Positions 15,446 to 34,028 of a stretch of DNA of 64,000 nucleotides are shown piece by piece; the stretch's first letter is position 1; each line of letters opens with the position of its first letter. A program made the position numbers and the translations under genes. The DNA is from Bacteroides faecalis (GTDB taxonomy: Bacteria > Bacteroidota > Bacteroidia > Bacteroidales > Bacteroidaceae), in NCBI RefSeq assembly GCF_003865075.1, contig NZ_BHWB01000007.1, positions 62,001-126,000 of the forward strand. Reading direction: 5' to 3'. A model generated the notes under the pieces. It did no database searches and was not told the origin of the DNA. It saw nothing but the letters and a program-made list of their open reading frames with translations.

Positions 15446-15487
15446 GTAAGCATCCGATAAAGTACACATTGTATTTTCATAAAATAG

Positions 15488-15534
15488 AAAACTCGATATC
15501 AACTTTAGTCAAAAGCTAATATCGAGTTTTTTTT
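15488..15534. terminator. Hairpin at the end of the IS66 operon
   Basis: Perfect 12-bp arms AAAACTCGATAT / ATATCGAGTTTT, with T runs on both strands. It lies just beyond the tnpC stop, ends the transposase transcript, and would also block readthrough into the element from outside. Confidence 0.75.
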
Positions 15535-15552
15535 ATTCTTCAACATAAATAT

Positions 15553-17166
15553 TTAAACTCCAATTGGATTCGTGTTGGATTTCTCTAACTTCCAAACATC
15601 CGGAAGAAGTTCACGAACATTTTTCCCGGAGTCCTTTTCCAGATAGTATGGAAGTTTGGCTATGACATCATTCAGCCATTCCCTTGGGTTAATTTCCTGT
15701 GCTTTACAGGTAGCTAATAGTGAGCATATGATTGCTGTATTTTCAGCAGCCTCGTGGTTACCACAAAAGAGGAAGTTCTTTCTGGACAAAGTAAGTGGTC
15801 TAATCGCATTTTCCGCCAGATTATTATCGATTTTCAGATTTCCATCTTTCAGGTAATTCTTCATTCTTGGCCAAAGAGGATAAGTATAGGTAATAGCTTG
15901 TCCCATGCGACTTCTTGGTGGTACTTTGCCATAAGTCTGTTCCACCCATTTTTCAAAGGAGTCAAGTATGGGAGTTGCCAAACGCTGGCGGAGTGCACAT
16001 CGTCCCTGCGCATCGAGTTTCCGGGCATCTGCTATCTGCTCAATATGATATAGTTCCTGTATTTGTTTAAGAGCATATTCAGCAAGTGATCTATTTTCAT
16101 CCAGTGCCAGCTCCATATGTCTTCTGATATGGGCCAGACAGGCAATAAGGCACACGTCCTTAGTGCCATCAAACGCATTGTAGGCACTGTATCCGTCACT
16201 TTGAAGATATCCTTTGAAGTCCTTTAATAAATTTCTGATTGTCTGTCCGGATCGGGAACCGTCATCATAATGGAAGATGACCTGTTTTTCCATAACTGCC
16301 CTGACCATCCATAAATACTCCTTATCGGTTTTTCCCTTTCCTTTGTTGATGACCCGTACTGTGGTTTCGTCGACCTGAACATATCCGCTGCCCGTTACGA
16401 GCTTTACTAATTCCGAATAAAGAGGACTTAATAACTCACATACCGGCTTAAACCACCCGCTTAAAGTACTTTCCGGCAGTCGTACACCCAAATGTCTGTA
16501 TTCCTTTACCTGACGATAAAAGGGAACATGATATTCATATTTCTGCAGAAGTATTTCGGCTAGCAAGGAAGGTCCTGCCAGACATTTGTATATAGGGGAA
16601 GGTGGAAGCGGTGCTATTATGACACCGCTTTCACCCTCTTTGGGAAGACTTAAATTATTTTTGAGTCCGTATTTGGGACGTACTGTCTCTTTGACATATA
16701 GCTTTCCCGGTTCAAATTCAAGCGTACGTGTGCGCTCTTCACCTATACGACGATATCGATTCAGATCCACATTATCAGGTTCGACAATGACTTCCACAAC
16801 GGGCAGCCCCTCTAACAGTTCCCGATTACGGCGGGATTCTTTTTTCTTTCCGTCCGGTTTACATGTCCTAGTGCCTACGCCAGTCTCCACAAGATCCGTT
16901 TCCTCTTGCCTGGGATTAGCCAAGGTATCAAACAAGGCAAGCTGGTTGGGATCCAAGGATGCCAGCTTTTCACTCTTTCTGCCGAAAAGCTGTCTGTTTA
17001 ACCAGGCTACTTGCGACAGGAGTTCCTGTACTTTTTGCTGCAGTTCTCCCGTCTGTTCCATAAGTTTCTGATTTGATTCTACAAGGGTACGATTTGTCTC
17101 CAGAAGCCCTTTTATTTGCTCCTGTTGATTCTTGATTATTAGTTCCATCGTATCTGTATGAATCAT
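15553..17166 (-). CDS. tnpC: IS66 family transposase TnpC
   Basis: The 537-residue DDE transposase of IS66. Residues 5-60 form a leucine-rich coiled coil (KNQQEQIKGLLETNRTLVESN...), followed by the RQLFGRKSEKL segment typical of the family. The catalytic triad is visible as Asp in YVQVDETTVRV, Asp in YLQSDGYSAYN and Glu in NNLAENAIRPL. The C-terminal IS66 domain (LLATCKAQEINPREWLNDVIAKLPYY) is intact. It is the third gene of the transposase operon, 75 bp after tnpB. Confidence 0.96.
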   Translation of the reverse strand: MIHTDTMELIIKNQQEQIKGLLETNRTLVESNQKLMEQTGELQQKVQELLSQVAWLNRQLFGRKSEKLASLDPNQLALFDTLANPRQEETDLVETGVGTRTCKPDGKKKESRRNRELLEGLPVVEVIVEPDNVDLNRYRRIGEERTRTLEFEPGKLYVKETVRPKYGLKNNLSLPKEGESGVIIAPLPPSPIYKCLAGPSLLAEILLQKYEYHVPFYRQVKEYRHLGVRLPESTLSGWFKPVCELLSPLYSELVKLVTGSGYVQVDETTVRVINKGKGKTDKEYLWMVRAVMEKQVIFHYDDGSRSGQTIRNLLKDFKGYLQSDGYSAYNAFDGTKDVCLIACLAHIRRHMELALDENRSLAEYALKQIQELYHIEQIADARKLDAQGRCALRQRLATPILDSFEKWVEQTYGKVPPRSRMGQAITYTYPLWPRMKNYLKDGNLKIDNNLAENAIRPLTLSRKNFLFCGNHEAAENTAIICSLLATCKAQEINPREWLNDVIAKLPYYLEKDSGKNVRELLPDVWKLEKSNTNPIGV

Positions 17167-17241
17167 TCTTTTTAGTATCTTATTATAATGTAAAGATACT
17201 GAAAATCGTACAGCTATACAAGTTTAGGAAGCTCTTTTTAA

Positions 17242-17610
17242 TCAATAAAATCCTTCTTTTCGACCGGCTTTAAGACGTTTGAGTCTATCACTCGGATTAT
17301 CGGTTATGCCTTCCACCATCAGTACTAAATCACGCCATTCCATGGGATAGGAACGGCTTTCACTATCATAGGAAGGAAGTCTGAAGGTACCTTCCTCAAG
17401 GCGTTTTATGTATAAAACCATACCTCCGTCTTCGGCATGCAGAAGTTTCATGGTTGTTCTGCTTCGGTTGACAAAGATAAACACATCGCCAAGTCGAACG
17501 TCATATCCCATTTTATCATGAACAAGCCCACAAAGGGAATTTATTCCTTTGCGCATATCTGTCTTCCCGGGACACAGGAAGTAGCGCATCGTATCATTCA
17601 GGCAGAACAT
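17242..17610 (-). CDS. tnpB: IS66 family accessory protein TnpB
   Basis: A 122-residue IS66 Orf2 protein, recognisable from YFLCPGKTDMRKGINSLCGLV, GDVFIFVNRSRTTMKLLHAEDGGMVLYIKRLEEG and the C-terminal RLKRLKAGRK. It is required with TnpC for IS66 transposition, but its biochemical role is not settled. Its start lies inside tnpA (17-bp overlap), which indicates translational coupling. This is the IS66 protein, not the TnpB nuclease related to Cas12. Confidence 0.95.
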   Translation of the reverse strand: MFCLNDTMRYFLCPGKTDMRKGINSLCGLVHDKMGYDVRLGDVFIFVNRSRTTMKLLHAEDGGMVLYIKRLEEGTFRLPSYDSESRSYPMEWRDLVLMVEGITDNPSDRLKRLKAGRKEGFY

Positions 17611-17950
17611 GGCTACATAATTTACTGATCAGGCCATAAATAATCTCCGGATTACTTAGGATGTTGAGGTGGATCTTTATGTCGGATGGAAGTTCTATGG
17701 TTACATGCCTGTCACCACATGATGAAGTGGGAATGGCAGGAGTATGATTAATATTAAGAGGGATAAACGAATCACCTGTAGGTTCGGTGTGTTTGGTATA
17801 TGGGTGACTCAATCCATATTTCTTCTTCCAATAATGAAAACAGGAAGCAGGATACGATTCATTATCACAGAAATCCTTTATGGTTAGTCCGCTGGACTGT
17901 TGGCGCTGATATAGCGCTAAAAACTCTTCTTTACTCATTGATCGTTTCAT
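17594..17950 (-). CDS. tnpA: IS66 family TnpA (HTH accessory protein)
   Basis: A 118-residue protein with an N-terminal helix-turn-helix of the IS66 Orf1 type (SKEEFLALYQRQQSSGLTIKDFCDNESYPASCFHYWKKKYG). The C-terminal part ends with ITIELPSDIKIHLN-like strands (VTIELPSDIKIHL). It is the first gene of the operon, starting 44 bp inside the right terminal repeat, and overlaps tnpB. Confidence 0.93.
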   Translation of the reverse strand: MKRSMSKEEFLALYQRQQSSGLTIKDFCDNESYPASCFHYWKKKYGLSHPYTKHTEPTGDSFIPLNINHTPAIPTSSCGDRHVTIELPSDIKIHLNILSNPEIIYGLISKLCSHVLPE

Positions 17951-18021
17951 AACTACGTTTTTGAACGCAAAGTAATAGAAGAGTTTTTAGGTCTACAATG
18001 TGTACTTTATCGGATGCTTAC

Positions 18022-18029: not shown

Positions 18030-18060
18030 GGACAAGTGTAAAAATGTAGTGTTTTAAACG

Positions 18061-18092
18061 AAAAAAGCAGCTATCTGAATTAGACAACTGCT
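18061..18092 (-). terminator. Original chromosomal terminator of the tRNA-Lys gene, now displaced
   Basis: On the minus strand, AAGCAG...CTGCTT arms are followed by a run of T. It directly follows the partial tRNA copy at 18097-18116, which is where the tRNA-Lys transcript would have ended before the element separated the two by 12.7 kb. Confidence 0.6.
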
Positions 18093-18096
18093 TGAT

Positions 18097-18116
18097 TTTT
18101 CAGTGATCCGCCTGGG
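18097..18116 (-). repeat. Attachment-site direct repeat, tRNA-distal end
   Basis: TTTTCAGTGATCCGCCTGGG here is identical to 30818-30837, where its 13 tRNA bases are the 3' end of the tRNA-Lys gene. A 20-bp identity to the end of a tRNA gene beside an integrase is the standard mark of tRNA-targeted integration. Confidence 0.85.
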
Positions 18117-18292
18117 ATTCTCCTGTGGAAGTTACCATGCTGATATTTAAAACTTTATATTTTTAGCTTCAAGCATATCCCATGAATTATCCCACTAATT
18201 TACTATATGCTTTTGCGGTAGTTTGCTCATGGAGAATATTAGAAACAAAGATAAACCTTTTCTTCTGATTTACAAAATCTATAATTCTAAAC

Positions 18293-21200
18293 TTAATCAT
18301 CTTCAATGAATTTTCTCTTTCTTTCCCAATCTGCATATCTTAATGCGTTTTCAATTTGAGAATTAAGATACTTTTTTATTGGTATTAGTTTTATTCCCAA
18401 ATCTGATTTTTCCACAATAGAAAGAATATTCCGCCAATCAGAAGCCTCTAAATCGCCGAGATTGACATCACCGCAAACAACTGTTCCGCCATTTCCTCGC
18501 CACCATATTTTAGAAAATAAATCAATTTCTTGTGTTAATGATATAAACAGCAATAACACATCTTCGAATAACTCTTTCATTGAGTGTCTTGCTATATCTA
18601 CAATAAGATTCATTTTTTTATAACTGTCATAATTCTCTTTGCAATAATTCAACAGGAAGTTTTTGGCACGTATACTTGCTTCTTGTGACAAATTCCAAAA
18701 AAAAGAATTGTAGAAATGCTCGCCAATTCCTAAATATACTTCTTTTTTATCGTGAAAATCAAAAATATTTTTCAGTATTGGCTCGATTTTAGTGGATTCC
18801 CAAATGACATTTAAATATCTGTCTTCATGCAAATAATGTTGATTTTCATTTTTTAAATACAAATTATCAAGATACTCTATAAGAAAATTTTCATCTCGTT
18901 GTATAATCTTAGAAAATCCTTTTCTAGTTAGATCAAAATGATTGTCTATTGAATCTTGTTGCAAGTAGAGTTTCTTTATTAAATCAATGTCATTTCCTAA
19001 TTCCTCAAAGTAGTCTTCTATAATATTGAATTGTACAAAAATTGTTTCGTTTTGTTTTTCGTTTTTATCAATGATTATTTGTAATAATTCTACAAATAAA
19101 TTTGGTTCAATACTTAAGTATCGCTTTAACCCTCCAAACCATATTGAAGCTTTATCCGGCAATCTTTTTATAGTGTCTTTAATTTGTTCAATATATTTCT
19201 CATTAATTAAATTATCTGCCAAGTTGTCATAAAAAGATAACTCCCAAGAATATCTATACTTAAAATCGTTTCCTTGTATAATGTTCCAAATATATTGAGA
19301 TTTTTCTTGTGTTGTTAGTTGATTCTTGAAGATAGTTCTTGGCACATAACCAGTCTGATTATCTGCATTTATCACTTCGGTCAAAAACTGACAACCTAAT
19401 TCGAAATTTCTCGAACAATTTTCATCAACAATTAAATCAAATGAATTATTATAGCCCCAATCATTTTTTGCAATGCTTTTTAAGTAAATAAAAGTGTTGT
19501 AAAATAATTCAATTTCTTTAATGTCATTGAAAATAAAAGATTTCCTAATCTCTTCTTCTTTCAATTTTTCATATTCTTGGTGATTTTCAAAATCATAGCT
19601 TTCCTTGTCTCTGAATCTATCCCAATCTAAAATAAGATACTTTTCATAAGTTGGGTTTGTGAATTTTTGAGATAAAGAAACAAATTCAGAATGTTCTATT
19701 CCGTTTCTTTTGCACCATCTAATCTGTTCTTGAACGTAATGACAATGTACAAATGAGTCAGGGATTAAATAATTTTCAATAATAGGTATTAAGAATTGAA
19801 TGTCATATTCCATTATCTCTTTTATAACATCAGGGCTAACATTTGCATAACTCTGTAATAATCCGAGAGATTCCTCAGGAAATACGCTAAAGTAGTCATT
19901 TACATTATTCCAAATATTCTTTCGAAATAACCTAATCCATTGGTTATTGGGAATGGGATACTGATAAAAAGATATTGCATAATGTCTTTCGCTTTTTGTT
20001 TGTTGGTATTTAAAAGCAAGAAATGTTTTTGACAATTCATAGAATGCTGTTGAATACAAAACATCCTTTTTTGCTAAACCTTCAATTAAAATTTGAAAAA
20101 GTATGTTTTGCCTTTCAAAACCAAAGCGTTCATCTGTCCAGTCAAAAGTTAATACTTCTCTTATTTTATGTATTAGTTCGGGCAGGTGTTCTGGTTTCTT
20201 TCTGATAAACTCAAAAGTCAATTCAATAGCATCTTTGAGCTTATTTTGAAATCGAAAAAAGTTACCAAGTAATTCAATAACAGAATTTTGACTATAAGCA
20301 AAATCGTTTGTTTCATATTTTACTTCATAATTAATGCCACGAGGTAAAGGCAGTTGGTTTATTTCATTGTAAACATACAACAATGTTTCTTCTTGCAGAT
20401 AAAACCAAAATGTTTCTAAAAATTCAAATGCTCTTTCTTCTTTATTTTCAATTGATTTTAAATAGTTTCGAAGAATAGGTTGAAGTTTTTGCATCACATT
20501 TTCAAAACCGAATGTATTGTTTGCAGGAATAACACAATCTTTAAACCGATTTTTATTTTCATTAAAATACTTCTTTAAAAGTGTTTCAAATGAAAGCAAA
20601 TTATCTTTTATAAATGCTTTATAGAAAAAGAAAATTGCTAGATTTTGTTCGGGAATTTTCACATAATCATATCGAATTTCCACTAGTTCCAATCTGTCTA
20701 ATTTTTCTATTGCATCAATGAATGATGAATAATCAATATGGAAATTTAGTAAAATTAGTTCAATTGTATTTTTGTCTTTATAAGGCACTGCATTGAAAAA
20801 AGCAATAATCCCCAAGCATTTGATATTAAACTGATTGGAGAACTCTCCATCATCATTTATAAATGTTGAGAAATATTTTTCAAATAAATCGGATACGTCT
20901 GCTAAAGCATAAATATTTTGCTCCTGTTTTGCAAGCAATGCTGTCATAATTGCAAGTCGAGGATTACCATCTGCGATACGAATAATTTCTTTATGAAACT
21001 GCCAATTTGAGATATTAAAAGGCTCTGCCTTAATAATATCAGTAATTTGTTCGTCTGAGAACTTTTTTAAAGTGTATTTGACAGGTGCAAATCCAAAACA
21101 ATAACTTTCAACAATTGGCAAAGCATAGTCTCTTGCAGTAATAACAATCTTCAAATTCCCCTGCCGTTGCGACTTGTAAAAACCGGTAATTTGATTAAAA

Positions 21201-22024
21201 GCATCTATTCTGTTAGCATCATCAACGAAAAGTATATAATCTTTCTTGTCATCAAAATGTTGATATAAATCACTTAACAATTCACAATTTTTATACGAAA
21301 GACAAAAAGCATTATAAGATAAGTTTTCCGCTAAAAAACTATTAATTGCTTCAATAGCTATTTTAGTTTTTCCAACTCCTGCAATACCAGTAATTATTAA
21401 AAAATCTTTTTGTTTGATTACTTGTTTAATGTTCTCCAATTCTTCCTCTCTGTGCAGAAACGTATTATTCAAAGGTGTTGCTATACCTTTAGATGCTTTA
21501 TTGTATTCATCAACAAAAGTTCTAATAGAAACAATTTGTCCTGTATCCAAAGGTAATCCTAGATACTTGTGAACTATATCTCTATGCTGTAAATGTAGTT
21601 CTAGTGATAGAGAATCAAGTGTATAAATTGTTAATGCAATTTTAGTCTTTCCCAGTAAATTTTTCAAAGATTGAATTTCATCTACATTTAAGTTGAAGTT
21701 TATACAAAGTATTATTTCTACAATCTGATTTATCGGAATTTTTGTTTTTGTAGTATCAAGACATTTTTCTATATCTTCTCGCAATTTTGATACACCTTTT
21801 GTAATATTGGTTGAGTATTCTACAAATACATATTTACCATTAGGCAACAACAAAAAAGTGTCAGGTGTTCCTTTTATTGTTTTTTGTTTTCCGCTCTGAC
21901 TTCCAACTCTCGAAAAAGCACGATAATTCTCGTTTTTAAGAATTAAAAAGCTATCGCATAATTCTTGAAAAACAGTTTCGTTTATACTTGCAAGGGCATT
22001 TTCTATGGTTTGTAATCTACTCAT
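18293..22024 (-). CDS. Large STAND NTPase with N-terminal PD-(D/E)xK-like domain, probable anti-phage defence protein
   Basis: A 1243-residue cytoplasmic protein. Residues 1-75 look like a restriction-nuclease fold: an N-terminal helix, then KGTPDTFLLLPNGKYVFVEYS, giving Asp55 and Glu69-x-Ser71 where PD-(D/E)xK enzymes have D...ExK. A linker leads to a P-loop NTPase: Walker A GIAGVGKT (213-220), Walker B YILFVDDAN (263-271), sensor-like VITARDY, and GNPRLAI matching the GxP motif of STAND proteins. The remaining 750 or so residues are helix-rich, repeat-like and aromatic, as in the target-sensing arms of Avs-type proteins. It sits at the distal end of a mobilizable element, a common place for defence cargo, with no partner gene. 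Role inferred; Lys in the nuclease motif is missing. Confidence 0.75.
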   Translation of the reverse strand: MSRLQTIENALASINETVFQELCDSFLILKNENYRAFSRVGSQSGKQKTIKGTPDTFLLLPNGKYVFVEYSTNITKGVSKLREDIEKCLDTTKTKIPINQIVEIILCINFNLNVDEIQSLKNLLGKTKIALTIYTLDSLSLELHLQHRDIVHKYLGLPLDTGQIVSIRTFVDEYNKASKGIATPLNNTFLHREEELENIKQVIKQKDFLIITGIAGVGKTKIAIEAINSFLAENLSYNAFCLSYKNCELLSDLYQHFDDKKDYILFVDDANRIDAFNQITGFYKSQRQGNLKIVITARDYALPIVESYCFGFAPVKYTLKKFSDEQITDIIKAEPFNISNWQFHKEIIRIADGNPRLAIMTALLAKQEQNIYALADVSDLFEKYFSTFINDDGEFSNQFNIKCLGIIAFFNAVPYKDKNTIELILLNFHIDYSSFIDAIEKLDRLELVEIRYDYVKIPEQNLAIFFFYKAFIKDNLLSFETLLKKYFNENKNRFKDCVIPANNTFGFENVMQKLQPILRNYLKSIENKEERAFEFLETFWFYLQEETLLYVYNEINQLPLPRGINYEVKYETNDFAYSQNSVIELLGNFFRFQNKLKDAIELTFEFIRKKPEHLPELIHKIREVLTFDWTDERFGFERQNILFQILIEGLAKKDVLYSTAFYELSKTFLAFKYQQTKSERHYAISFYQYPIPNNQWIRLFRKNIWNNVNDYFSVFPEESLGLLQSYANVSPDVIKEIMEYDIQFLIPIIENYLIPDSFVHCHYVQEQIRWCKRNGIEHSEFVSLSQKFTNPTYEKYLILDWDRFRDKESYDFENHQEYEKLKEEEIRKSFIFNDIKEIELFYNTFIYLKSIAKNDWGYNNSFDLIVDENCSRNFELGCQFLTEVINADNQTGYVPRTIFKNQLTTQEKSQYIWNIIQGNDFKYRYSWELSFYDNLADNLINEKYIEQIKDTIKRLPDKASIWFGGLKRYLSIEPNLFVELLQIIIDKNEKQNETIFVQFNIIEDYFEELGNDIDLIKKLYLQQDSIDNHFDLTRKGFSKIIQRDENFLIEYLDNLYLKNENQHYLHEDRYLNVIWESTKIEPILKNIFDFHDKKEVYLGIGEHFYNSFFWNLSQEASIRAKNFLLNYCKENYDSYKKMNLIVDIARHSMKELFEDVLLLFISLTQEIDLFSKIWWRGNGGTVVCGDVNLGDLEASDWRNILSIVEKSDLGIKLIPIKKYLNSQIENALRYADWERKRKFIEDD

Positions 22025-22358
22025 TTGTTATCATTTTAACTTTACATTATTATTACATTGCATTAGGAAAACTGACTTAATGCAGAAAAAGGAAAATTTT
22101 GTCCTAAAGTGATTCCCTTCTTGCTTGTAAAATTAGTAAATATTTGAAAAACAGCCATAATTACATCTAAAATATTTTTTAATAGTCTAGCAAAACTGCT
22201 GATGAACACTAATTATAGATTTACTTTCTTTTACTTCGTTCTGTAACCTCATGGTATTAGGCGTTTTTTCCATGAGTTTTCGCCCTCTAAACGGACAAGG
22301 AAGCATGAGTGGGGAATAACTGACATAGGTACAAGAAATAACTTCGGTAACAACAGGG
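22025..22358. other. Intergenic region between STAND gene and mobilization genes
   Basis: 334 bp. It must hold the promoter of the STAND gene, but no clear TTTG/TAnnTTTG pair was found. A minus-strand frame of about 65 codons overlaps the relaxase stop (translation includes YSPLMLPCPFRGRK) but has no start codon, so it is not called as a gene. Confidence 0.4.
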
Positions 22359-23273
22359 CTATCGCCTGAATCCTCGCTTAGACTTCTTCTTTTTTCTTTT
22401 CATCGGGATTTGTTGTTCTTCATTGCTGTTGTTTGGCTGAGGAGTGGGCAAGCCCAACAAAGAAGATAATACTAAATCTGGTACATTAATATTAATCTGC
22501 ATATTATCAGCCTGTTGTAGCGTTTGTATATCCGGCTGTATCGCTGTCCCAACATTTTGCTGATTAATTGGTTGTATCTCCGTATTTGCAATCTGTCCTT
22601 GCTGCATTTTAAGTTGCTCGGCAATGCTGCCGTTCTTCATCGTGTTGTTATACTCAAAAGATTCGGTTAACTGTCTTTCGTAGCCGAACAGTTTATCAAA
22701 TCTCTGTTCCACTTGTTTAATTAGATTCACCCGATCAAAACCTCCTTTGATTATCCCGTTCTTGCTATTTTTATGATTGGTAAGCGGTGATAGCTTCTTT
22801 TTATTGGTTTGGTCTTTCCTGCTCATAATCAAATGACAGTGCATATTCAATTCATTATCTGAACGATTGCGATCAAAATGAATTTTGCCATAGAACTTTA
22901 TATTCGATGCAGATAGTTCTTTGTTGAAGTTCTTGGCATATTCAGGAATAAACACTTCACGGATATATCGCTTCATTGCTTCGGCTTGTTCCTGTTCCGT
23001 ATTACCCATCGCTCGGAGTTCTTTTTCCGATGGACTGACATGAATAGCATAAAACTTAGCATCCGTTTTTAGGAGTTGCCCGATATTACTATCTATATCT
23101 TTTATAACCATTGATTTATAGATGTTATCATCTGTCAGATTGAAAAAGCCTTCTGTATAGATACCCTTTTCCATTCGTTCTAAATCCTCATGTTCTAAAT
23201 AATTGGCTAACAGCCGGCTACTGCCTGCATTATTATATGTACCCTTCGATGGTGGGGCAAAGTCTATGTGCAT
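22359..23273 (-). CDS. Relaxase-like mobilization protein (DUF5712 type)
   Basis: A 304-residue protein paired with a BfmA/BtgA protein. The N-terminal half has the relaxase-type histidine motif: IHFDR (His132) and NMHCHLI (His145, His147), with an upstream FYAIHVSPSEKE segment, consistent with a Bacteroides MobB/BtgB-like nickase that cuts oriT. The last 60 residues are Pro/Asn/Gln-rich and end in a strongly basic tail (KRKKKKSKRGFRR), likely for DNA binding. It begins 4 bp after the upstream gene, so the two are one operon. The nicking tyrosine cannot be fixed by eye; Tyr74, Tyr103, Tyr112 and Tyr128 are candidates. Confidence 0.82.
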   Translation of the reverse strand: MHIDFAPPSKGTYNNAGSSRLLANYLEHEDLERMEKGIYTEGFFNLTDDNIYKSMVIKDIDSNIGQLLKTDAKFYAIHVSPSEKELRAMGNTEQEQAEAMKRYIREVFIPEYAKNFNKELSASNIKFYGKIHFDRNRSDNELNMHCHLIMSRKDQTNKKKLSPLTNHKNSKNGIIKGGFDRVNLIKQVEQRFDKLFGYERQLTESFEYNNTMKNGSIAEQLKMQQGQIANTEIQPINQQNVGTAIQPDIQTLQQADNMQININVPDLVLSSLLGLPTPQPNNSNEEQQIPMKRKKKKSKRGFRR

Positions 23274-23277
23274 AATC

Positions 23278-23862
23278 CTAGGTATTTATCAGATTGTTGA
23301 TTGCTGCTTTTAGGTTATCTTTTCTTTTACTATCCATCACCCCACAAGCAGAAAGTTCTGAATAGAGTTGTATTAAGTGAAACAACTTTTTATAATCCCG
23401 CTGGTGTATTTGGTAAAGTGCGTTAATTTGTTTGGACTGACTGTTTATCACATCGGCATGATTGCAGAACTGTTCACTCAATTTTTTGAGTACGGCTGTT
23501 TGCCTTTCCTGACTAGCTTCCAGTTGAGAGAGAATAAGAGTTTCCAAAGTTTTGCCGATAGTATCGAAACGCAAAGCGATAGAATTTGTAGTCCGTATCA
23601 TGGGATTTAGCTGTTCTTCTTCATAGTGGCGGATGAAGCGGATAATGTCGTCCTGTCGTTTGTTTATTTTCGCCAGTTCTGATTTTACGGATTCGGGTGC
23701 TTCGGATGGGTTGATATGCGCCTTATCTATATACCCGAACGCCAACTTTACAACTTCACTCTTTTTCAGTGAACAGCGTTTGCATATCTTCTCTACCAAA
23801 GCTGCCGTTTCCTTGTCTATGGAAATGGTAGTGAATATCGTTTTTCGACTGCTGTTTGGCAT
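23278..23862 (-). CDS. BfmA/BtgA family mobilization protein
   Basis: A 194-residue protein with an N-terminal ribbon-helix-helix-like segment (IFTTISIDKETAALVEKICKRCSLKKSEVVKLAFGYI), typical of relaxosome accessory DNA-binding proteins, followed by a long helical, coiled-coil-prone region (residues 60-160). The family is known from Bacteroides transfer factors, where the protein binds oriT and helps the relaxase. It is the first gene of the mobilization operon, immediately downstream of the hairpin-rich presumptive oriT. Confidence 0.85.
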   Translation of the reverse strand: MPNSSRKTIFTTISIDKETAALVEKICKRCSLKKSEVVKLAFGYIDKAHINPSEAPESVKSELAKINKRQDDIIRFIRHYEEEQLNPMIRTTNSIALRFDTIGKTLETLILSQLEASQERQTAVLKKLSEQFCNHADVINSQSKQINALYQIHQRDYKKLFHLIQLYSELSACGVMDSKRKDNLKAAINNLINT

Positions 23863-23949
23863 GATAATTACTTTTTTATAGAAATTTGAATAGATAAATA
23901 CCTGATAATAAGCATTTCAAAGAAAATACTTATTACAGGTGTCATTACA

Positions 23950-24086
23950 GCGTGTTCTTGTAACACGCTAAAGCCAAAGGCTTTGCCCCGCAGGGCAAGA
24001 GGGAAGAACAGGACTTGTCCGGTTCCCTCTTGCTCGATTTAGCGAAACGGGCTGAACCGATAGGTGAGGCAGTTTGTGCTAAATCG
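23950..24086. other. Presumptive origin of transfer (oriT)
   Basis: This intergenic stretch is packed with inverted repeats: GCGTGTT/AACACGC (23950-23968), AAAGCC/GGCTTT (23970-23984), GCCC/GGGC (23985-23996), a perfect 10-bp CAAGAGGGAA/TTCCCTCTTG (23996-24032) with an inner GGACTTGTCC, and CGATTTAGC/GCTAAATCG (24035-24086). It is more GC-rich than its surroundings and lies directly upstream of the mobilization operon. These are the usual properties of a relaxase recognition and nick region. The nic site is not located. Confidence 0.65.
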
Positions 24087-24146
24087 GGGTGGTGGCACAG
24101 AGGAATAGCCTGAACACAGGCTTCTTTCCTTTGCTACTTTTTGCTA

Positions 24147-24479
24147 TCAGGGCTGGTTTGCTAACTGATTGGCTTTTTCAAACTGTTTGTAGGTTTGAGA
24201 ATCAGCATATTCACGGACAAAAGCCCGAATATCGCTGGCTCTATAATATGTTTTCCGTCCAATGGTAAAGTAGGGAAGTACACCTTTTGCCCGATAGCGT
24301 TGTAGGGTTCTGAAAGATGCTTTCAACAGAAAGGCTAAATCTTGATTATCCAACAGCCTTTCGTTTTCATCAAATACAGTATCGGTATTGATAAGAGATT
24401 TCAAGTCTTGTCCGATTTCGGTGAGTTTCTTGGATAGCTTCTCCATCCACTTCTCGAAGTTTTCGTTGTCTATATACAT
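24147..24479 (-). CDS. MerR-like helix-turn-helix protein (excisionase type)
   Basis: A 110-residue protein with a helical N-terminal half and a C-terminal winged HTH typical of Bacteroides element excisionases: LLDNQDLAFLLKASFRTLQRYRAKGVLPYFTIGRKTYYRASDIRAFV. Such proteins bind att sites or promoters to control excision and mobilization. It is transcribed toward the presumptive oriT and mobilization operon. Confidence 0.85.
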   Translation of the reverse strand: MYIDNENFEKWMEKLSKKLTEIGQDLKSLINTDTVFDENERLLDNQDLAFLLKASFRTLQRYRAKGVLPYFTIGRKTYYRASDIRAFVREYADSQTYKQFEKANQLANQP

Positions 24480-24608
24480 TTTGCTTCAATTTTAAGTTCA
24501 ACATTATTATTTTCAATCGATTGATGAAGCAAAGTTCGGTAAACGGATGAAATTAAATTAGGGGAGTAGATATACTACACCCCCAATAATTGTTCATAAG
24601 TGGCTGAT

Positions 24609-25229
24609 TTATAGATATCCTTTCTTTTTACTTTCTTCGGAAATAGCTTTCCGAAGTATATCCAAAAACTCGGTGCGTTTATTGGCTTTTCGAGAAATTA
24701 CATTTTCATGCTTTTTGTGAATGTCCCCTAGTTTAATATTGAATAGATATTCAAAGGCTCGTCCGATTTCTGTCAGTGGTGATTCTGTTCCGTTGTGAGT
24801 AACCACTCTTTTAGATAGAAACAATCCGCTAACCATCTCCATAACTTCAATGAGATTAGTTTTATCAGTTAGGTAAAGCGGTGATTGCCATGCGGCTTCT
24901 ATCCTAATAAAGTATTTTGGAAACTCCATTTGTTTATGGATTAGCTCTAACTCTTTTTGAACGAAAGACAAGACTTTATCACAATAGATAAGTTTCAATA
25001 CATCTTGTTTCGTTCCATACGAAACCTCTAAAGATTTAACCGTCTCAATCTCTATATGAATCAAATTGAGGGTACGAATACGTTTCATATTATCTGTCTC
25101 TGAATCTAAATAGAAGATTAACCTTTCCACAAACTCTCTATATGCCTCTTTGATTTGCGGTTCAGGATCACTTTCTGTATTAGAAACTGACAAGAGCTTG
25201 AATAGCTTTGTTTCCAGAATATCCCACAT
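24609..25229 (-). CDS. RteC-type regulator, divergent
   Basis: A 206-residue soluble protein resembling the C-terminal domain of RteC, the protein that activates excision of CTnDOT: KFFIRIEAAW-like PKYFIRIEAAWQSPLYLTDKTNLIEVMEMVSGL, then LTEIGRAFEYLFNIKLGDIHKKHENVISRKANKRTEFLDILRKAI. The N-terminal half is only loosely similar. It starts 20 bp after the MATE gene and shares its transcript, which is unusual and suggests that excision control and exporter expression are linked. Confidence 0.78.
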   Translation of the reverse strand: MWDILETKLFKLLSVSNTESDPEPQIKEAYREFVERLIFYLDSETDNMKRIRTLNLIHIEIETVKSLEVSYGTKQDVLKLIYCDKVLSFVQKELELIHKQMEFPKYFIRIEAAWQSPLYLTDKTNLIEVMEMVSGLFLSKRVVTHNGTESPLTEIGRAFEYLFNIKLGDIHKKHENVISRKANKRTEFLDILRKAISEESKKKGYL

Positions 25230-25248
25230 AGATAAATCGTTGTTAGGA

Positions 25249-26568
25249 TTAAATATTCTTATTGAACCACCTGCCTTTTTTCATATAAACATAAGACATC
25301 AGTAATAACACTAACACATATATTTGCTCGGAAGTCCAATATGCTGCAAGCGGAATATTCGGAAATTGGGACAAAGCAAATAGATATGACAGGTAGATAA
25401 TAATATTAATCATCTGGAATACAAAAACTACTTTCGTATTGCCTGTGCCTATTACTGTATTGCAATATGTATAAGCTGGCACAGAGATGATAAACGTAGA
25501 AAGCATTACACAGAATGGGTAAAATGCTTTCTGAACAACTATCTCATCATTAGTGAACAGCCCTAAAAGAGTTCCTGACAAAGCAAAAGATAACAGAATC
25601 AATGGAATACCCATTCCATAAGTTAGTAATATGATACGACGGGAAAGTGGCATAACTTCTGGAATTTTATTTGCTCCAATAAGGTTACTAACCAATGAAA
25701 TAGCAGTAGTCGCAAATGAATTGACAATCACGAAAAAGAGCATTGAGATACTTCTTACTACGTTTGCTGCTGCAAGTTCGCATTCACCTAAATGTTCAAT
25801 TGCTACAAAGAATAAAAACCAAGGGGCAATGCAAAAAAATGAACGTACCATCGTCCAAACAGAAATATTTAAGAGGTGGAGCGATAATCCTAAATCAAAA
25901 CTTGCACGCAATCTATACCGTTTCTTATCTATACGCTTCCACATATATAGAATCAAAAACAATAATCCGACAAGCTCCGCAAGTGATGATCCCATAGCAG
26001 CCCCACTAATACCCAATTTCGGAAAACCTGCATTCCCGAATATTAGCAAGTAGTTAAATATAATATTGCAGATTACCATAACAATAGAGTTAGCTGTAAG
26101 TATTTTGGTATTGGTTGTTCCAACGAAGAAAGCCCGAATTGCCAATAAAGGAAATGCGAACAAATAACTGTAATCACGCCATCCCATGTACTTCATGGTG
26201 GCTTGATAGACACTATCAGACGAAATTGTCATGCGAAGTAATACAGGAGAAAACAGTTTGGATAATATGAAAACGATAATGGCAAAAACAGATAAGAAAA
26301 TCAATCCCTGATAAAATACTCTGCCAACATCCATATATCGCCCTTCACCGTTTCGCCTTGCGATAACAACTTGTGCTCCAAGACTGAATCCAAAGCCGAG
26401 CATATAAATGGCAGTGTAATACATTGTAGCCAGTGCCGATGCTCCTAAATCTATCTGACTGACATGACCAAGAAAAATGGAATCTGTGAAATTAATCAAT
26501 TGTTCCATGAGTAGGCTCACCATGATAGGCAAGTTGATGAGCCATATTTGTTTATATGTATAATTCAT
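25249..26568 (-). CDS. MATE family efflux transporter
   Basis: A 439-residue inner-membrane exporter with twelve hydrophobic segments arranged as two six-helix halves. MATE features include the N-terminal QIWLINLPIMVSLLMEQLINFTDSIFLGHVS and the GFSLGAQVVIARRNGEGR loop. Family members expel cationic drugs, dyes or metabolites using Na+ or H+. It is cargo of the mobilizable element and heads an operon with the RteC-type gene. The substrate cannot be read from sequence; resistance to a toxic compound is a reasonable guess. Confidence 0.92.
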   Translation of the reverse strand: MNYTYKQIWLINLPIMVSLLMEQLINFTDSIFLGHVSQIDLGASALATMYYTAIYMLGFGFSLGAQVVIARRNGEGRYMDVGRVFYQGLIFLSVFAIIVFILSKLFSPVLLRMTISSDSVYQATMKYMGWRDYSYLFAFPLLAIRAFFVGTTNTKILTANSIVMVICNIIFNYLLIFGNAGFPKLGISGAAMGSSLAELVGLLFLILYMWKRIDKKRYRLRASFDLGLSLHLLNISVWTMVRSFFCIAPWFLFFVAIEHLGECELAAANVVRSISMLFFVIVNSFATTAISLVSNLIGANKIPEVMPLSRRIILLTYGMGIPLILLSFALSGTLLGLFTNDEIVVQKAFYPFCVMLSTFIISVPAYTYCNTVIGTGNTKVVFVFQMINIIIYLSYLFALSQFPNIPLAAYWTSEQIYVLVLLLMSYVYMKKGRWFNKNI

Positions 26569-26866
26569 TATTCAACTTAATATAACATGACCGTTAAGCA
26601 CTACTTTTGCAGTGCCATAAATCATAATCAGAAACGTAATTGAGAAAACTCTGTGTTTTGAATAGGGTATAAAAATATAGGTCGAAGACTTATTAGTTCT
26701 CCGACCGCCCTGAAGCATTTAAGCTATATACAGAGTTGCCATTTCATAAGTTGAACAATATATTAACTTGTTGAATACATACAAAGGTATACATTTTCAG
26801 GGAAATAGAACTATGTAATTGGTTTTTTATTACCTGATATATGCTTCTGTTGCAATAATGGCTCTC
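26569..26866. other. Intergenic region upstream of the MATE gene
   Basis: 298 bp, AT-rich, containing the promoter region of the MATE-RteC operon and the 3' end of the cupin transcript. No clear consensus promoter or strong hairpin was recognised. Confidence 0.35.
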
Positions 26867-27274
26867 TTATTCATTTTTATGTGGTAGCAGTGTTATTAAA
26901 TCTTCATCGCCTTCCAATAGATAATAAGCTATAAATATTAGAGGACTTGAATCTGATATATTGTCGAAATGTAAAATGGGTTGGTTCTTTGGTTCGTAAA
27001 AAGCCTCACCTGCTTTTATCAGATATGAACGTTGCCCTTCCACTTGAAATAATAGAGTTCCTGAAACGACATAACCCACGACTGAGCAGTGATGAAGATG
27101 ATAATCCGCTTTCCCATTTTGAGGAATCATAATCTTTTTAATTTCTACTTTTGATAAACTTTGTTTATCATGTAAATGAACTGTTAGAAGATCAGTTTTT
27201 GTTACTGTATTCTTTTTCATACAAATGCAGCTACTTAGTGATAAAAATAAGGTGAATATCAATACTTTATTCAT
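26867..27274 (-). CDS. Small cupin-domain lipoprotein
   Basis: About 135 residues from the ATG before MNKVLIFTLFLSLSSC, which is a lipoprotein signal with lipobox LSSC. An upstream in-frame start at 27295 would add seven residues ahead of the signal and is less likely. The body is a single cupin barrel with metal-ligand-like histidines (DYHLHHCSVVGYVVSGTLLF) and the second motif AGEAFYEPKNQPILHFDN. It lies 46 bp (26 bp from the longer frame) after the Crp-like gene and is probably co-transcribed. A periplasmic ligand-binding role is possible but unproven. Confidence 0.8.
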   Translation of the reverse strand: MNKVLIFTLFLSLSSCICMKKNTVTKTDLLTVHLHDKQSLSKVEIKKIMIPQNGKADYHLHHCSVVGYVVSGTLLFQVEGQRSYLIKAGEAFYEPKNQPILHFDNISDSSPLIFIAYYLLEGDEDLITLLPHKNE

Positions 27275-27320
27275 GATTTCTTTGTTTTGCTGCAAAATTA
27301 GGATGAAAGAGATAGTTATT

Positions 27321-27875
27321 TCATTGACCTATGTTAAGAGATTTAAGCCTACTCAAAGATTCAGGCTTAATACCAAGATAAGATGCAATATGATATTGTG
27401 ATACATGTTGCTCTATATGCGGAAATGTTTGTAAAAGCAATTTGTATCTATCTAATGCACTATCCATTAGTAGTGATGACTCTTTACGACACTTTCTGAT
27501 AAATAGTGTGTCTGCAATATACTTTCCTAGTTTATACCATTCATAAGATTCTTGTAATAAGAGTTCATAATTAGATTTGGATAAACTAAGCATAAGAGAA
27601 TCCTCTAATGCCTGTATGCTTCCTATGCTCGGTTCTTTTGTTAGGAAACTTCTATAGGATGTTGTAAAAGAACCATCTGTGTAAAAATCACTTATATATT
27701 CTTCACCGTCTTTTTCTATATAAGAGCGAAGTGTTCCCTTTTCAACGAAGCCAATAAAAGTGCATACTTTACCCTGTTGCAAAAGGAAATCTTTCTTTTT
27801 TAACGATATTCTTTCTGTTATGTCTATTAATCTCTCATAAGAGCTATTTGGTAACCCAACCTTTTCTATTATCAA
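27321..27875 (-). CDS. Crp/Fnr family transcriptional regulator
   Basis: A 184-residue protein with an N-terminal cyclic-nucleotide-binding-like barrel (LLQQGKVCTFIGFVEKGTLRSYIEKDGEEYISDFYTDGSF) and a C-terminal HTH (SQYHIASYLGIKPESLSRLKS). This is the compact Bacteroidota form often found next to transporters and small-molecule enzymes. The conserved cAMP-contact Arg-Ser pair is not obvious, so the ligand is unknown. It probably controls itself, the cupin and possibly the neighbouring MATE gene; a perfect palindrome lies 38 bp upstream. Confidence 0.87.
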   Translation of the reverse strand: MIIEKVGLPNSSYERLIDITERISLKKKDFLLQQGKVCTFIGFVEKGTLRSYIEKDGEEYISDFYTDGSFTTSYRSFLTKEPSIGSIQALEDSLMLSLSKSNYELLLQESYEWYKLGKYIADTLFIRKCRKESSLLMDSALDRYKLLLQTFPHIEQHVSQYHIASYLGIKPESLSRLKSLNIGQ

Positions 27876-27912
27876 TTCCTTTATATCTATGATTTTTTTT
27901 TGAACAACAAAA

Positions 27913-27950
27913 ATAGGTATAATATTGCACTGGTGGAATATTATACCTAT
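27913..27950. promoter_or_regulatory. Perfect 14-bp palindrome upstream of the Crp-like gene
   Basis: ATAGGTATAATATT at 27913-27926 is repeated inverted at 27937-27950 around a 10-base loop. It lies between the divergent Crp-like and HTH genes. It may be the Crp-like protein's operator; a run of T on the minus strand after the hairpin also allows an attenuator or terminator. Confidence 0.55.
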
Positions 27951-28106
27951 TTAAATCATATTCAGGAAGTTCTATAGTATGCAATATGCCTAATCATGCC
28001 TTGTGGGGACACTTCCAGACAGTTTTGAAAACGGCTCTTGATTCTTCTTTCATTTGCTGGTGAAAATAGAATCAACACGTTTTATAAACCATTAAAAATT
28101 AAATGT

Positions 28107-28421
28107 ATGGAAGTAGTAACCATCGAAAAAAGAACATTCTCGTATGTCTGCGAACGGTTCACCGAGTTTGCCAAACGAATAGACAGTTTGTGCAGCACTC
28201 ATACACAGAAAGTAGAAAAATGGCTTGATAGTCAGGATGTGTGCCTGTTGTTAGGCTTTAGTAAACGAACGCTGCAATATTACCGAAGTAGTGGACGACT
28301 GGCTTATTCTCAAATCGGGAGCAAGATTTATTATAAGTCTTCTGATATTGAAAGAATTATTGTAGAGAGTGAAACACAAAATCAATCACCCAAACAAATC
28401 ATGCCTTATGAAAAGAACTAA
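28107..28421 (+). CDS. MerR-like helix-turn-helix protein
   Basis: A 104-residue protein from the ATG at 28107; the frame runs further upstream but without a convincing start. The C-terminal half is the element-type HTH: WLDSQDVCLLLGFSKRTLQYYRSSGRLAYSQIGSKIYYKSSDIERII. It overlaps the following DUF3876 gene by 14 bp. It is probably an excisionase or regulator of the element's transfer functions. Confidence 0.85.
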   Translation: MEVVTIEKRTFSYVCERFTEFAKRIDSLCSTHTQKVEKWLDSQDVCLLLGFSKRTLQYYRSSGRLAYSQIGSKIYYKSSDIERIIVESETQNQSPKQIMPYEKN

Positions 28422-28701
28422 AGAAGATTATCCGACCTTTAACCTATTTTCCGTTGTTGGCACATGGGAAAGCGTCAATCTGAATCCTACGGTTATCATC
28501 TACCGGAACGACAAAGATTATCTTCTCTCTATTATCTATGTATCAGAAACCACCAAACAGGCTTCACCCGCCACTTATGAAATACAGAAAGAAGGTAGTC
28601 TATATTTTATTGATCCTGCTCCTAAACGGATCTACATAGATTATGATCCAGTAAAAGATGTACTTAACCTTTCATCATTGGGTGACTATCTGCGTAATTA
28701 A
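28408..28701 (+). CDS. DUF3876 domain protein
   Basis: A 97-residue protein with the DUF3876 core (FNLFSVVGTWESVNLNPTVIIYRNDKDYLLSIIY). The family is found almost only in Bacteroidota mobile elements, between HTH genes as here. The start at 28408 overlaps the preceding gene, giving translational coupling; the frame extends to 28369 but the added residues are not conserved-looking. Function unknown. Confidence 0.82.
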   Translation: MKRTKEDYPTFNLFSVVGTWESVNLNPTVIIYRNDKDYLLSIIYVSETTKQASPATYEIQKEGSLYFIDPAPKRIYIDYDPVKDVLNLSSLGDYLRN

Positions 28702-28782
28702 TCTATAAACCAGCTAATCATCTAACTGATTAGCCATCCAGCAATTTTGAAATCAATATTTCAATAAAACAATCTTTCAATC

Positions 28783-29076
28783 ATGGAATTAATAAATAAA
28801 GATACACCCCAAGTCAAAGAATTTATTTCTTCGCTCGATTCAATGCTGAACGGTATTGAATCAATTGTTAAACACTATAAGCCCCACCTGAACGGAGAAC
28901 GTTTTCTTTCCAATCATGAGGTTTCTAAAAAGCTCAATGTCAGTTTGCGAACTCTACAAGAATGGCGAGATACGGGATTAATCCCCTTCATCCAGATAAA
29001 AGGTAAAATCATATATCGTCAAAGTGATATTGACAAACTACTGCAAAAGCACTACTTTGAAAGCTGGAAAGAATAA
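28783..29076 (+). CDS. MerR-like helix-turn-helix protein
   Basis: A 97-residue protein with a helical N-terminus and HTH (FLSNHEVSKKLNVSLRTLQEWRDTGLIPFIQIKGKIIYRQSDIDKLL). It is the third such protein in the element and the last gene of the plus-strand trio. It lies on the integrase side, which is where an excisionase acting on att sites would be expected. Confidence 0.85.
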   Translation: MELINKDTPQVKEFISSLDSMLNGIESIVKHYKPHLNGERFLSNHEVSKKLNVSLRTLQEWRDTGLIPFIQIKGKIIYRQSDIDKLLQKHYFESWKE

Positions 29077-29298
29077 CCTGCTACCCTCAAAAACATTGTT
29101 TTTCGGAATTTAATTTGAATCATTGACTTTTCCAGTGAAGTATTTAGTCTGTGCAAGTCTTTAGATAAAAAATACGCTCGAAATGCAATGAGAGGAAGAT
29201 TTTTATCTAAACCGAAGGCTTGGACTTGAACAGGCTAAATATGGAACTTACCTTTGTCGATGCTTCATATTGAGTTCTGGAAAACTTACTTCAAAAGA

Positions 29299-29340
29299 AA
29301 AGGATTGAGAAAATGAAATTCATTCTTCCCAATCCTTTTT
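29299..29340. terminator. Bidirectional terminator between convergent genes
   Basis: Arms AAAGGATTG/CAATCCTTT with a T run on the plus strand and A-rich flank on the other. It lies between the plus-strand HTH gene and the minus-strand integrase stop. Confidence 0.7.
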
Positions 29341-29361
29341 CAGTATTGGCTACTACCTTTA

Positions 29362-30582
29362 TTATATAGCCAACTCTGACAAGCAGCTATTTACTTTCTG
29401 CATATCCTTTAGAATATTCTGATCCAGTACCCGTGCATAGTGTTTCGTTACGTTGGTATCGGCATGACCTAACATCTTGGCTACATTTTCCATACTCACG
29501 CCATTCGCTAGGCATATAGAGGTGGCATAGGAGTGCCGGGCTGAATGTGTGCACAGATTTTTCTGCAATCCGCATACATCTGCAATTTCTTTGAGATAGC
29601 TATTCATGCGCTGATTACATAATACAGGTAATAGTTTTCCGGTACACTCTGCCACATTTTTATACTTTTCAAGTATAGAAGCTGCCACAGGTAACACAGG
29701 AATATTGCACATGATTTTTGTCTTTTGGCGGTTCTTCCTTATCCAAAGTTCCCCTTTGTTGTCTCTTACTAAGTGTTCAGGAGATAAATCTTTTACATCG
29801 CTGAATGCCAAGCCAGTAAAAATGCAAAAAACAAAAATATCCCGTACTTGCTCTACTCGCTTAATCGTGAACTCTTTAGAGAGAATGATTTTGATTTCGT
29901 CCATTGTCAGGAATTCAGGATCGGTTTCTTCCAACTTGAAGCGGTAGTAAGCGAATGGATCTTTCTTAATCCAATCGTTTTCCAAAGCAATGCGGATAAT
30001 CTTCTTCAAGTTCTTCAATCGGGTGATAGCCGAATTCTGCGCACAACCTTTTTCAATCTTCAAAAAAGCATCGAACTTAGAAATGAAGTTAGCTTCCAAG
30101 TTGTTTAGGGCAATATCCGATAATTGATATTCTTTCTTGATAAATTCCTCCAAATATCGGGTAGTCGTTTCATACCGTTGAACAGTTTTACTAACAAAGT
30201 CTCTGCCGATCAGCTTACGACTTTGTTCGTTATGCTCTCTGAATACCTGCAATAGCGTTTTGTTTTCTTCATCCACGCCATAAAACAACTTTCTTACCAG
30301 ATCGACATTGATAACCTTGTCGGAAGTTTCCAGTTCCCTATAAATTTGGTGTATGCGTGAACGTGTGATTTCTAAGTAGTGGTTCAGTTCCACCGACATA
30401 CGGTCTTTACCTTTTGAATTTTCTTTTGCTTGATTCCATAAGTTTACAGGGCAGCTTCTTTTGATAGAAATATCTACCATACAGCCGTTTACGGTAATTC
30501 TCATGCACACAGGTGCTTCTCCGTTCTTTAATAATTTGCCTTTCTTGATGAAGAACAATACAGAAAATGATTTACGAGCCAT
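29362..30582 (-). CDS. Tyrosine recombinase (integrase) of the mobilizable element
   Basis: A 406-residue integrase with N-terminal arm-binding and SAM-like core-binding domains, and a C-terminal catalytic domain. Catalytic residues seen are Lys in the RKNRQKTK strand, HSARH (HxxR), LGHAD (His) and the nucleophile in TKHYARV. The first Arg of the family is replaced: the box reads FTGLAFSDV where most recombinases have GLR. Several Bacteroides element integrases share this change. It lies 242 bp from the 20-bp repeat in the tRNA gene, and so catalyses integration at tRNA-Lys. Confidence 0.93.
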   Translation of the reverse strand: MARKSFSVLFFIKKGKLLKNGEAPVCMRITVNGCMVDISIKRSCPVNLWNQAKENSKGKDRMSVELNHYLEITRSRIHQIYRELETSDKVINVDLVRKLFYGVDEENKTLLQVFREHNEQSRKLIGRDFVSKTVQRYETTTRYLEEFIKKEYQLSDIALNNLEANFISKFDAFLKIEKGCAQNSAITRLKNLKKIIRIALENDWIKKDPFAYYRFKLEETDPEFLTMDEIKIILSKEFTIKRVEQVRDIFVFCIFTGLAFSDVKDLSPEHLVRDNKGELWIRKNRQKTKIMCNIPVLPVAASILEKYKNVAECTGKLLPVLCNQRMNSYLKEIADVCGLQKNLCTHSARHSYATSICLANGVSMENVAKMLGHADTNVTKHYARVLDQNILKDMQKVNSCLSELAI

Positions 30583-30760
30583 TTTTACATCGTTTTTAGA
30601 GTTACAAAACTATGTATTCTCTTCCAAAGTAGTACTATGCAAAACACTATGAATCAGTGAGAAAGATGCAAATTTGTGGGACTTTTTTGAACTAAATTTT
30701 AGTCCCACGATTTATCCACCAATAATATGCTTGAAACGGCTATTTTCTGCCACCTGCTAG

Positions 30761-30800
30761 AAAAAAGAAATCCCCGATAATGTTTGATTATCAGGGATTT
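30761..30800 (-). terminator. Element-borne terminator downstream of tRNA-Lys
   Basis: Arms AAATCCCTGATAAT/ATTATCGGGGATTT (minus strand; one mismatch) around a 5-base loop, then CTTTTTT. It stands between the tRNA and the integrase gene, so it ends the tRNA transcript and insulates the integrase. Confidence 0.85.
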
Positions 30801-30817
30801 GCTTGATTTTTCTTTTG

Positions 30818-30837
30818 TTTTCAGTGATCCGCCTGGG
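30818..30837 (-). repeat. Attachment-site direct repeat, tRNA-proximal end
   Basis: Identical over 20 bp to 18097-18116. It covers the last 13 bases of tRNA-Lys and seven bases beyond, so integration leaves the tRNA complete. Confidence 0.85.
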
Positions 30838-30897
30838 GCTCGAACCCAGGACCCCAACATTAAAAGTGTTGTGCTCTACCTGCTGAGCTAGCGAATC
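30825..30897 (-). tRNA. tRNA-Lys (anticodon TTT)
   Basis: A 73-base cloverleaf. The acceptor stem GATTCGC pairs with GCGGATC (one G-T pair), the D arm is GCTC...GAGC, the anticodon stem CAACA/TGTTG encloses CTTTTAA (anticodon TTT), and the T arm is CTGGG-TTCGAGC-CCCAG. CCA is not encoded. Its 3' end is the integration site of the adjacent element. Confidence 0.96.
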
Positions 30898-30991
30898 AAT
30901 CCTTATTTGCTAATCAGTTATTTCCTGATTGCGGGTGCAAAGGTAGTGACTTTTATTTAATCTGCAAGTGTTTTGTAGAAAAAAGTGCTAA

Positions 30992-32125: not shown

Positions 32126-32142
32126 ATCTGTTTTTATTGAAA

Positions 32143-32739: not shown

Positions 32740-33042
32740 GTGATTTTGTGTTATCTTTATTAAATGAATATGTGTACAAAGGTAATATAACCTTGGAAAT
32801 TTCATTGTTAATGGAGAATTTTTTATTTTTCATATCCCTTTATTAATCTGGTGGTAAGAAATAAGATTCGTATATCTACTGTAAAATATCTCTGATATTT
32901 TACTGGAAAATCTCCATATATATGTTTAAGTGAAGCTTTTAAAGCAGAATCTCTTATATATAAGAACTGTTAAATTATTCTTTATTTTAAGTTATTGCGC
33001 AATTTATTTCTAAATTCGCATAATAAATAACGATAAAGGGAC

Positions 33043-34023: not shown

Positions 34024-34028
34024 GATAT

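Follow-up and report, generated by a model that had tools for sequence, protein, structure and literature searches.

The stretch analysed here, 64,000 nucleotides of Bacteroides faecalis contig NZ_BHWB01000007.1 (positions 62,001–126,000; hereafter the window, whose own numbering we use), carries at the end of a mobilizable element a large gene for a putative Avs-like STAND protein (P0001, 18293–22024, minus strand). The reading frame is open from its ATG over 1243 codons without interruption, and the plus strand across the same interval contains many stops; the first-pass annotation had named no strand. A first-pass annotation had described a 1243-residue frame combining nuclease-like N-terminal motifs, an intact ATPase core and a helical arm, and all of these are present as claimed, the motifs being located at P54-D55, E69-Y70-S71, Walker A (GIAGVGKT, residues 213–220), Walker B (YILFVDDAN, residues 263–271) and G353-N354-P355.

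Residues 194–302 match the Pfam family nSTAND3 (E 5.9e-9, 36.2 bits versus a cut-off of 27.2), with the core from Walker A to Walker B encoded at 21212–21388, and K219, D268 and D269 are unvarying in all 14 family members having the NTPase region. The core is preceded by a PD-(D/E)xK-like domain (residues 1–165, 21530–22024), assigned from invariant residues and fold matches of a low-confidence model, and followed by a predicted winged-helix domain (residues 379–478, 20591–20890). The latter matches winged helices (Z 7–9, low-confidence model), including that of the NLR RPP1 at Z about 7, in VIA-align, which served as a second look at the Foldseek list and in which Z below 8 may mean merely a common arrangement. 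The remaining ~760 residues form a helical repeat arm (residues 481–1243, 18296–20584), a putative sensor by its model and conservation profile, which is predicted to be nearly all helix (mean pLDDT 57.9) and which resembled generic HEAT/karyopherin solenoids, with no match at E <= 0.001. This arrangement of nuclease-like N-terminus, STAND core and helical arm is the Avs plan proposed in the first-pass annotation, and is supported by the nSTAND3 match together with the low-confidence models.

The N-terminal domain and its active site

The structure was predicted with AlphaFold2 on an alignment of three sequences (3 of the 13 in alignment A3). For residues 1–480, the sole PDB match in Foldseek with E <= 0.001 was Avs4 (8dgf_B, 7.6e-5), at a template modelling (TM) score of 0.20 and a root-mean-square deviation (rmsd) of 22.6, followed by a plant NLR resistosome (0.026). 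VIA-align placed model residues 6–138 on Avs4 residues 7–155 (116 aligned, rmsd 4.3) with a Z of 7.2, which is below 8 and may reflect a common arrangement only. Its top match was chain E of the African swine fever virus RNA polymerase (Z 9.9, 118 aligned, rmsd 3.0), which we take to be RPB5-like, and further RPB5-type chains aligned across about residues 8–146 at Z 7.2–7.6. The RPB5 jaw itself has a restriction-endonuclease-like fold. The lack of a nuclease fold in the first 160 residues, named in advance as a finding that would overturn the first-pass reading, was not observed outright, in a weak model whose best match is RPB5-type and whose match to the Avs4 N-terminus is weaker.

Residue conservation was assessed in a 15-member alignment, in which G272 is frameshifted and G589 comprises the N-terminus only, and from which G351 and a G884 fragment were excluded. 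F19, G41, G52, P54, D55, E69, K80, D84 and C88 are invariant in all 15 members, the last five belonging to the best-conserved positions of the protein as a whole, and K48 and T72 are retained in 14. D55, E69 and K80 are encoded at 21860–21862, 21818–21820 and 21785–21787, respectively, and in the model D55 immediately precedes strand 56–59, E69 lies in strand 65–70 and K80 in helix 77–89. Position 71 is Ser in four members and Thr in 11, and because one or the other stands there throughout, the missing lysine of the E-x-K motif is a family trait and not decay. Judging from the alignment and the model, Lys80 of the following helix probably supplies the catalytic lysine in its place. The first-pass report of a motif lysine replaced by Ser is therefore right for position 71, but does not amount to loss of the catalytic lysine if, as is probable, the invariant Lys80 takes over. 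According to PMC4909276, the catalytic lysine of the Hantaan and influenza endonucleases comes from a helix, and that of the La Crosse enzyme from a strand. The window protein resembles the influenza and Hantaan cap-snatching endonucleases, of the PD-D/ExK superfamily, in the succession of PD, E and a lysine that is predicted to lie on the next helix, a relation that may be convergent.

A link to these enzymes was also sought at the profile level. Pfam L_protein_N matches five of 13 N-termini, the best at 3.1e-4 and 21.2 bits versus a cut-off of 27. We rejected membership as sub-threshold; a search of 11 genomes with this family pointed to other places in six and never to this gene, and it also gave a signal in two of 14 control genomes, leaving the link as an idea only.

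Several of these results weigh against the receptor with a nuclease effector proposed below: model confidence is low (mean pLDDT 49.5 for residues 1–480, besides the value given for the arm), the N-terminal fold is matched best by RPB5-type polymerase subunits and not by nucleases, none of the 15 members has the E-x-K lysine, no nuclease Pfam family was matched above cut-off by the window protein or 13 N-termini, and the protein, its N-terminal profile and the full-length profile, each searched against PDB sequences, gave P-loop or chance matches only. The RPB5 likeness, the missing lysine and the lack of a nuclease family would all suit a STAND anti-phage sensor whose N-terminal PD-(D/E)xK/RPB5 fold serves to recruit a partner, or to bind nucleic acid that it does not cut. 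We nevertheless regard such a sensor as unlikely, as the invariance of D55, E69 and K80 is more readily explained by catalysis than by binding, no conserved partner gene was noticed among the neighbours of the relatives, and a helix-borne catalytic lysine has precedent among viral PD-(D/E)xK endonucleases (PMC4909276).

One relative, G589 (L016, 1486–1863), is a 125-residue N-terminal domain standing on its own, set among AbiD and methylase genes, and may be a remnant or a separate small protein.

Relatives and known systems

Relatives of the same length occur in Capnocytophaga (L005, 85% identity), in a genome of the same genus as the window (G094, 61%), on a 13-kb IMG/VR contig (L040, 56%) and in G232 and G263 (about 50%, 49–50%). 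Thirteen Leptospira plasmid records hold relatives at 41.5–42% identity over 99–100% of the query, two of them with IS1501-like transposases annotated under the STAND match, and distant relatives range from 22 to 29%. Searches of a phage collection, of E. coli genomes at the DNA level and of further viral contigs yielded nothing beyond L040. Matches were found in four of 198 genomes (one to the P-loop only) and in two of 80 genera, and a search of 395 genomes of the class with the N-terminal profile found the family in six, counting that of the window. Another search matched 29 of 395 genomes, of which eight were taken as family, five at full length (G000, G232, G263, G243, G254), one in two frames (G272), one with the N-terminus only (G589) and one with a C-terminal piece (G351); the other 21, with matches confined to residues 107–309, were dropped. 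G193 and a Haloarcula match (15% coverage) were also dropped.

The window protein is nearer to the Capnocytophaga protein (85%) than to its counterparts within its own genus (61% and 24%, two genomes), an indication of horizontal transfer. When the window gene is compared with L005, the ratio of non-synonymous to synonymous substitution rates (dN/dS) is about 0.07–0.16 in each of five regions. The gene is conserved and under purifying selection, and given these ratios and the same-length relatives, the frame is more than a chance one. In every full-length relative compared, conservation is lowest in the arm, identity falling from the N-terminus to the distal arm from 65% to 39% in G232 and from 37% to 14% in G059, as expected of a sensor.

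The genes around the relatives are mixed. One relative (L045) lies near PtuA (2.7e-117) and PtuB (5.9e-44) of a Septu system and SoFic (2.2e-51), another (L009) near a type IIG restriction-modification gene and an SNF2/PLD helicase, and an N-terminus-only copy (L047) beside AbiD and an Eco57I-type methylase. A YhcG-type nuclease gene lies upstream of the relative at L008, a phage integrase and an Mrr-like gene accompany that at L042, the phage contig L040 carries a terminase gene, and the Leptospira relatives are carried on plasmids. L044 has a HipA pair only and no defence gene, and the one neighbour scanned at L046 gave no match. Consistent housekeeping surroundings, the other finding that was to overturn the first-pass reading, were not seen outright, although L005, L078 and L079 lack defence neighbours (the latter two by eye). 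Two large neighbours were noted in passing: a 1418-residue gene beside the relative and Septu at L045 (4299–8555), with no Pfam (E 1e-4) or PADLOC (E 1e-5) match, and a hypothetical 1264-residue Leptospira plasmid gene immediately after the STAND relative (L006, 15881–19675), with no Pfam match (E 1e-4).

Low similarity to the known Avs groups had been anticipated and is borne out: neither the window protein nor any of the 13 A3 members matched an AVAST profile (PADLOC-DB 2.0.0, E <= 1), in a scan that matched eight other families. An AVAST type by profile was therefore rejected, and since no PADLOC AVAST model matches, we call the protein Avs-like, outside the catalogued Avs types as judged by sequence. 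Two other families were considered and set aside. PD-Lambda-4_A (window E 0.019; two of 13 members, best 1.8e-4) was too weak and local, and mad8 (window 0.0035; 12 of 13 members, best 1.1e-5) was read as the shared P-loop because the match is confined to residues 184–268 of the window protein.

Among the known systems closest to the protein, Avs4 (AVAST type IV; PDB 8dgf, bound to phage portal) has an order of nuclease, STAND and repeat arm that the predicted parts here fit, and its N-terminal domain aligns over 116 residues of a weak model. It differs in giving no sequence or profile match and in length (a chain of 1534 residues versus 1243), and the lysine of the window protein has apparently moved to a helix. 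According to PMC12931631, Avs1–4 have nuclease effectors, and Avs5 has an nSTAND3 NTPase and a C-terminal helical repeat region. The window protein resembles Avs5 (AVAST type V) in the same Pfam nSTAND3 and predicted C-terminal helical repeats, but has no match (Pfam, E <= 1) to Sir2, the effector of Avs5. AVAST_IV is recorded in one strain among 402 L. interrogans genomes in PMC11201134; this record could not be matched to the Leptospira plasmids found here and was not used. Titles and the beginnings of abstracts, mostly of papers available without subscription, contained nothing on this STAND family or on the element family described below.

The mobilizable element and its cargo slot

A 12.7-kb element (18117–30837) at a tRNA-Lys gene carries the STAND gene as its final cargo. 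The stop codon of that gene lies 176 bases from the att repeat, so that its placement at the far end of a mobile element in the first-pass annotation was correct. The element is bounded by a 20-nt repeat, attL (18097–18116) being an exact copy of attR (30818–30837), whose sequence covers the final 14 bases of the tRNA-Lys(ttt) gene (30824–30897, minus strand) that serves as integration site. An empty site in G030 joins the equivalents of window positions 18041–18116 (82% identical) and 30818–34255 (93%) directly. With its att repeats, recombinase, empty site and mobilization genes, this is an integrative mobilizable element, and other genomes, in which nearly the same backbone carries different cargo, suggest that it excises and transfers. 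The G+C content of the STAND gene (28–29%) versus that of the rest of the window (33–43%, 2-kb windows) fits foreign cargo.

Upstream of the STAND gene, all on the minus strand, lie genes for a MobB-like relaxase (22359–23273; DUF5712 above cut-off, NCBIfam MobB_relaxase at 151 bits, below its cut-off of 200), a BfmA/BtgA-type mobilization protein (23278–23862; BfmA profile above cut-off), an HTH_17 protein (24147–24479) and an RteC-like regulator (24609–25229), followed by a second cargo region of MATE efflux, cupin and cNMP-binding proteins (25249–27875). An HTH_17 gene of the conserved backbone lies on the plus strand (28038–28421), and an XerC/D-like tyrosine recombinase, below equivalog cut-offs, on the minus strand (29362–30582). 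The element shares BfmA- and MobB-like genes, RteC, a tyrosine recombinase and a tRNA site with the Bacteroidota BfmA/BtgA-type mobilizable elements, and a Bacteroides fragilis plasmid carries a stretch 80% identical to the BfmA gene here. The present element differs from these in a single slot from relaxase to att that holds many different, often defence-like cargoes.

BfmA is found at E <= 1e-40 in 23 of 158 genomes of the genus. We surveyed the slot in 17 element copies with BfmA at least 88% identical, the window included; a copy located where a contig begins (G924) and an incomplete one (G073) were left out. A conserved att-end segment (18090–18270 in the window) closes the slot in 15 of the 17 and was not found in L112 and L113. 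In the 16 other copies the cargo mostly differs from the STAND gene. An identified defence or restriction-modification gene is present in six: AbiEi, MTase_II, HerA and PtuA in L075, HsdR in L112, an N6_N4 methylase in L114 and L116, a C5 methylase in L115, and a Qat-type set, with QatC identified by PDB match, in a second element copy of the window's own genome (L118; G000:C2, 2058–6601). The three methylase-only cargoes could be orphan methylases. In the Qat-type set, a TatD-like gene was noted by eye and a KAP-like gene has no PDB match; the 593-residue QatA candidate gave no PDB sequence match. NA37 (nucleoid-associated) genes occupy L074, L122 and L111, and in two of these slots they lie on either side of a third gene; those of L074 have no PADLOC match and L111 also contains a Cap4-like match just under cut-off, making these sets candidates for an unnamed defence set.

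A complete IS66-family insertion sequence occupies 15446–18021. Its terminal repeats are perfect over 29 nt (28 when one base is trimmed), and its target duplication of 8 bp, AATATTAT, is exact. It is not part of the mobilizable element, lying 75 bases beyond the att repeat.

Proposed function and its alternatives

Taken together, we think it probable that this one gene encodes a complete Avs-like receptor against phage, with a variant PD-(D/E)xK effector, placed in the cargo slot of a tRNA-Lys element. Phage sensing, oligomerisation and nuclease cutting would follow by analogy: the variable arm (residues 481–1243) would bind a phage protein, and ATP binding by the nSTAND3 core, as in the STAND family, would drive assembly of several copies, which would switch on the N-terminal PD-(D/E)xK-like domain. 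There, the invariant Asp55 and Glu69 may hold the metal while Lys80 replaces the motif lysine, and the activated domain would cut nucleic acid and end infection, perhaps by cell killing. Position, element ends and cargo exchange are observed, and the gene presumably travels in this exchangeable slot. The slot is often used for defence or restriction-modification genes (6 of 16), which agrees with the earlier suggestion that the position supports a defence role; the tie is an association, the figure having no matched control slot.

Further observations speak against this receptor, including the lack of any AVAST profile match, the three relatives lacking defence neighbours and the six of 16 slots (L113, L117, L119, L120, L121, L123) with genes of no assigned family. 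The Bacteroidota −7/−33 promoter pair, or −7 alone, in what we take to be its usual form, was also not found in the 336 bases upstream. A more far-reaching version, in which the protein founds a new Avs-type receptor family of Bacteroidota and Leptospira with a cap-snatching-type helix-lysine endonuclease, and the slot is the element family's dedicated plug-in site for defence, seems to us distinctly unlikely; if its cap-snatching part were true, the effector may cut RNA rather than DNA.

The carriers of the family are themselves mobile (the window element, plasmids and a phage contig) and a HipA pair lies near L044, as might be expected if the protein acted in conflict with other mobile DNA, such as plasmids and rival elements, or maintained its carrier, and not against phage. 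We consider this very unlikely, as both the Avs-type arm and the accompanying Septu, Qat, AbiEi and restriction-modification genes point to invader sensing. A regulatory or metabolic gene with no defence role, to which the metabolic surroundings of L005 and L078 (by eye) might point, is highly improbable given the patchy spread and the transfer described above.

The Avs-like receptor proposed here adds a family missed by the PADLOC profiles tested. D55, E69, K80 and K219 are targets for testing, and the relatives with diverging arms offer natural variants for mapping the sensed target. The element family is itself a source of candidates, because the same position in sister copies holds Qat, Septu/HerA or restriction genes: the six unassigned slots are candidates for possible new defence systems, joined by the three NA37 slots and by one large ATPase, a 1300-residue protein in L124 that is a relative of the AAA family ATPase in PDB 9n00. 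In L124 (G924), a second att-end segment lies ~5 kb past the first with a methylase-like gene in between, so the element there may be tandem or composite.

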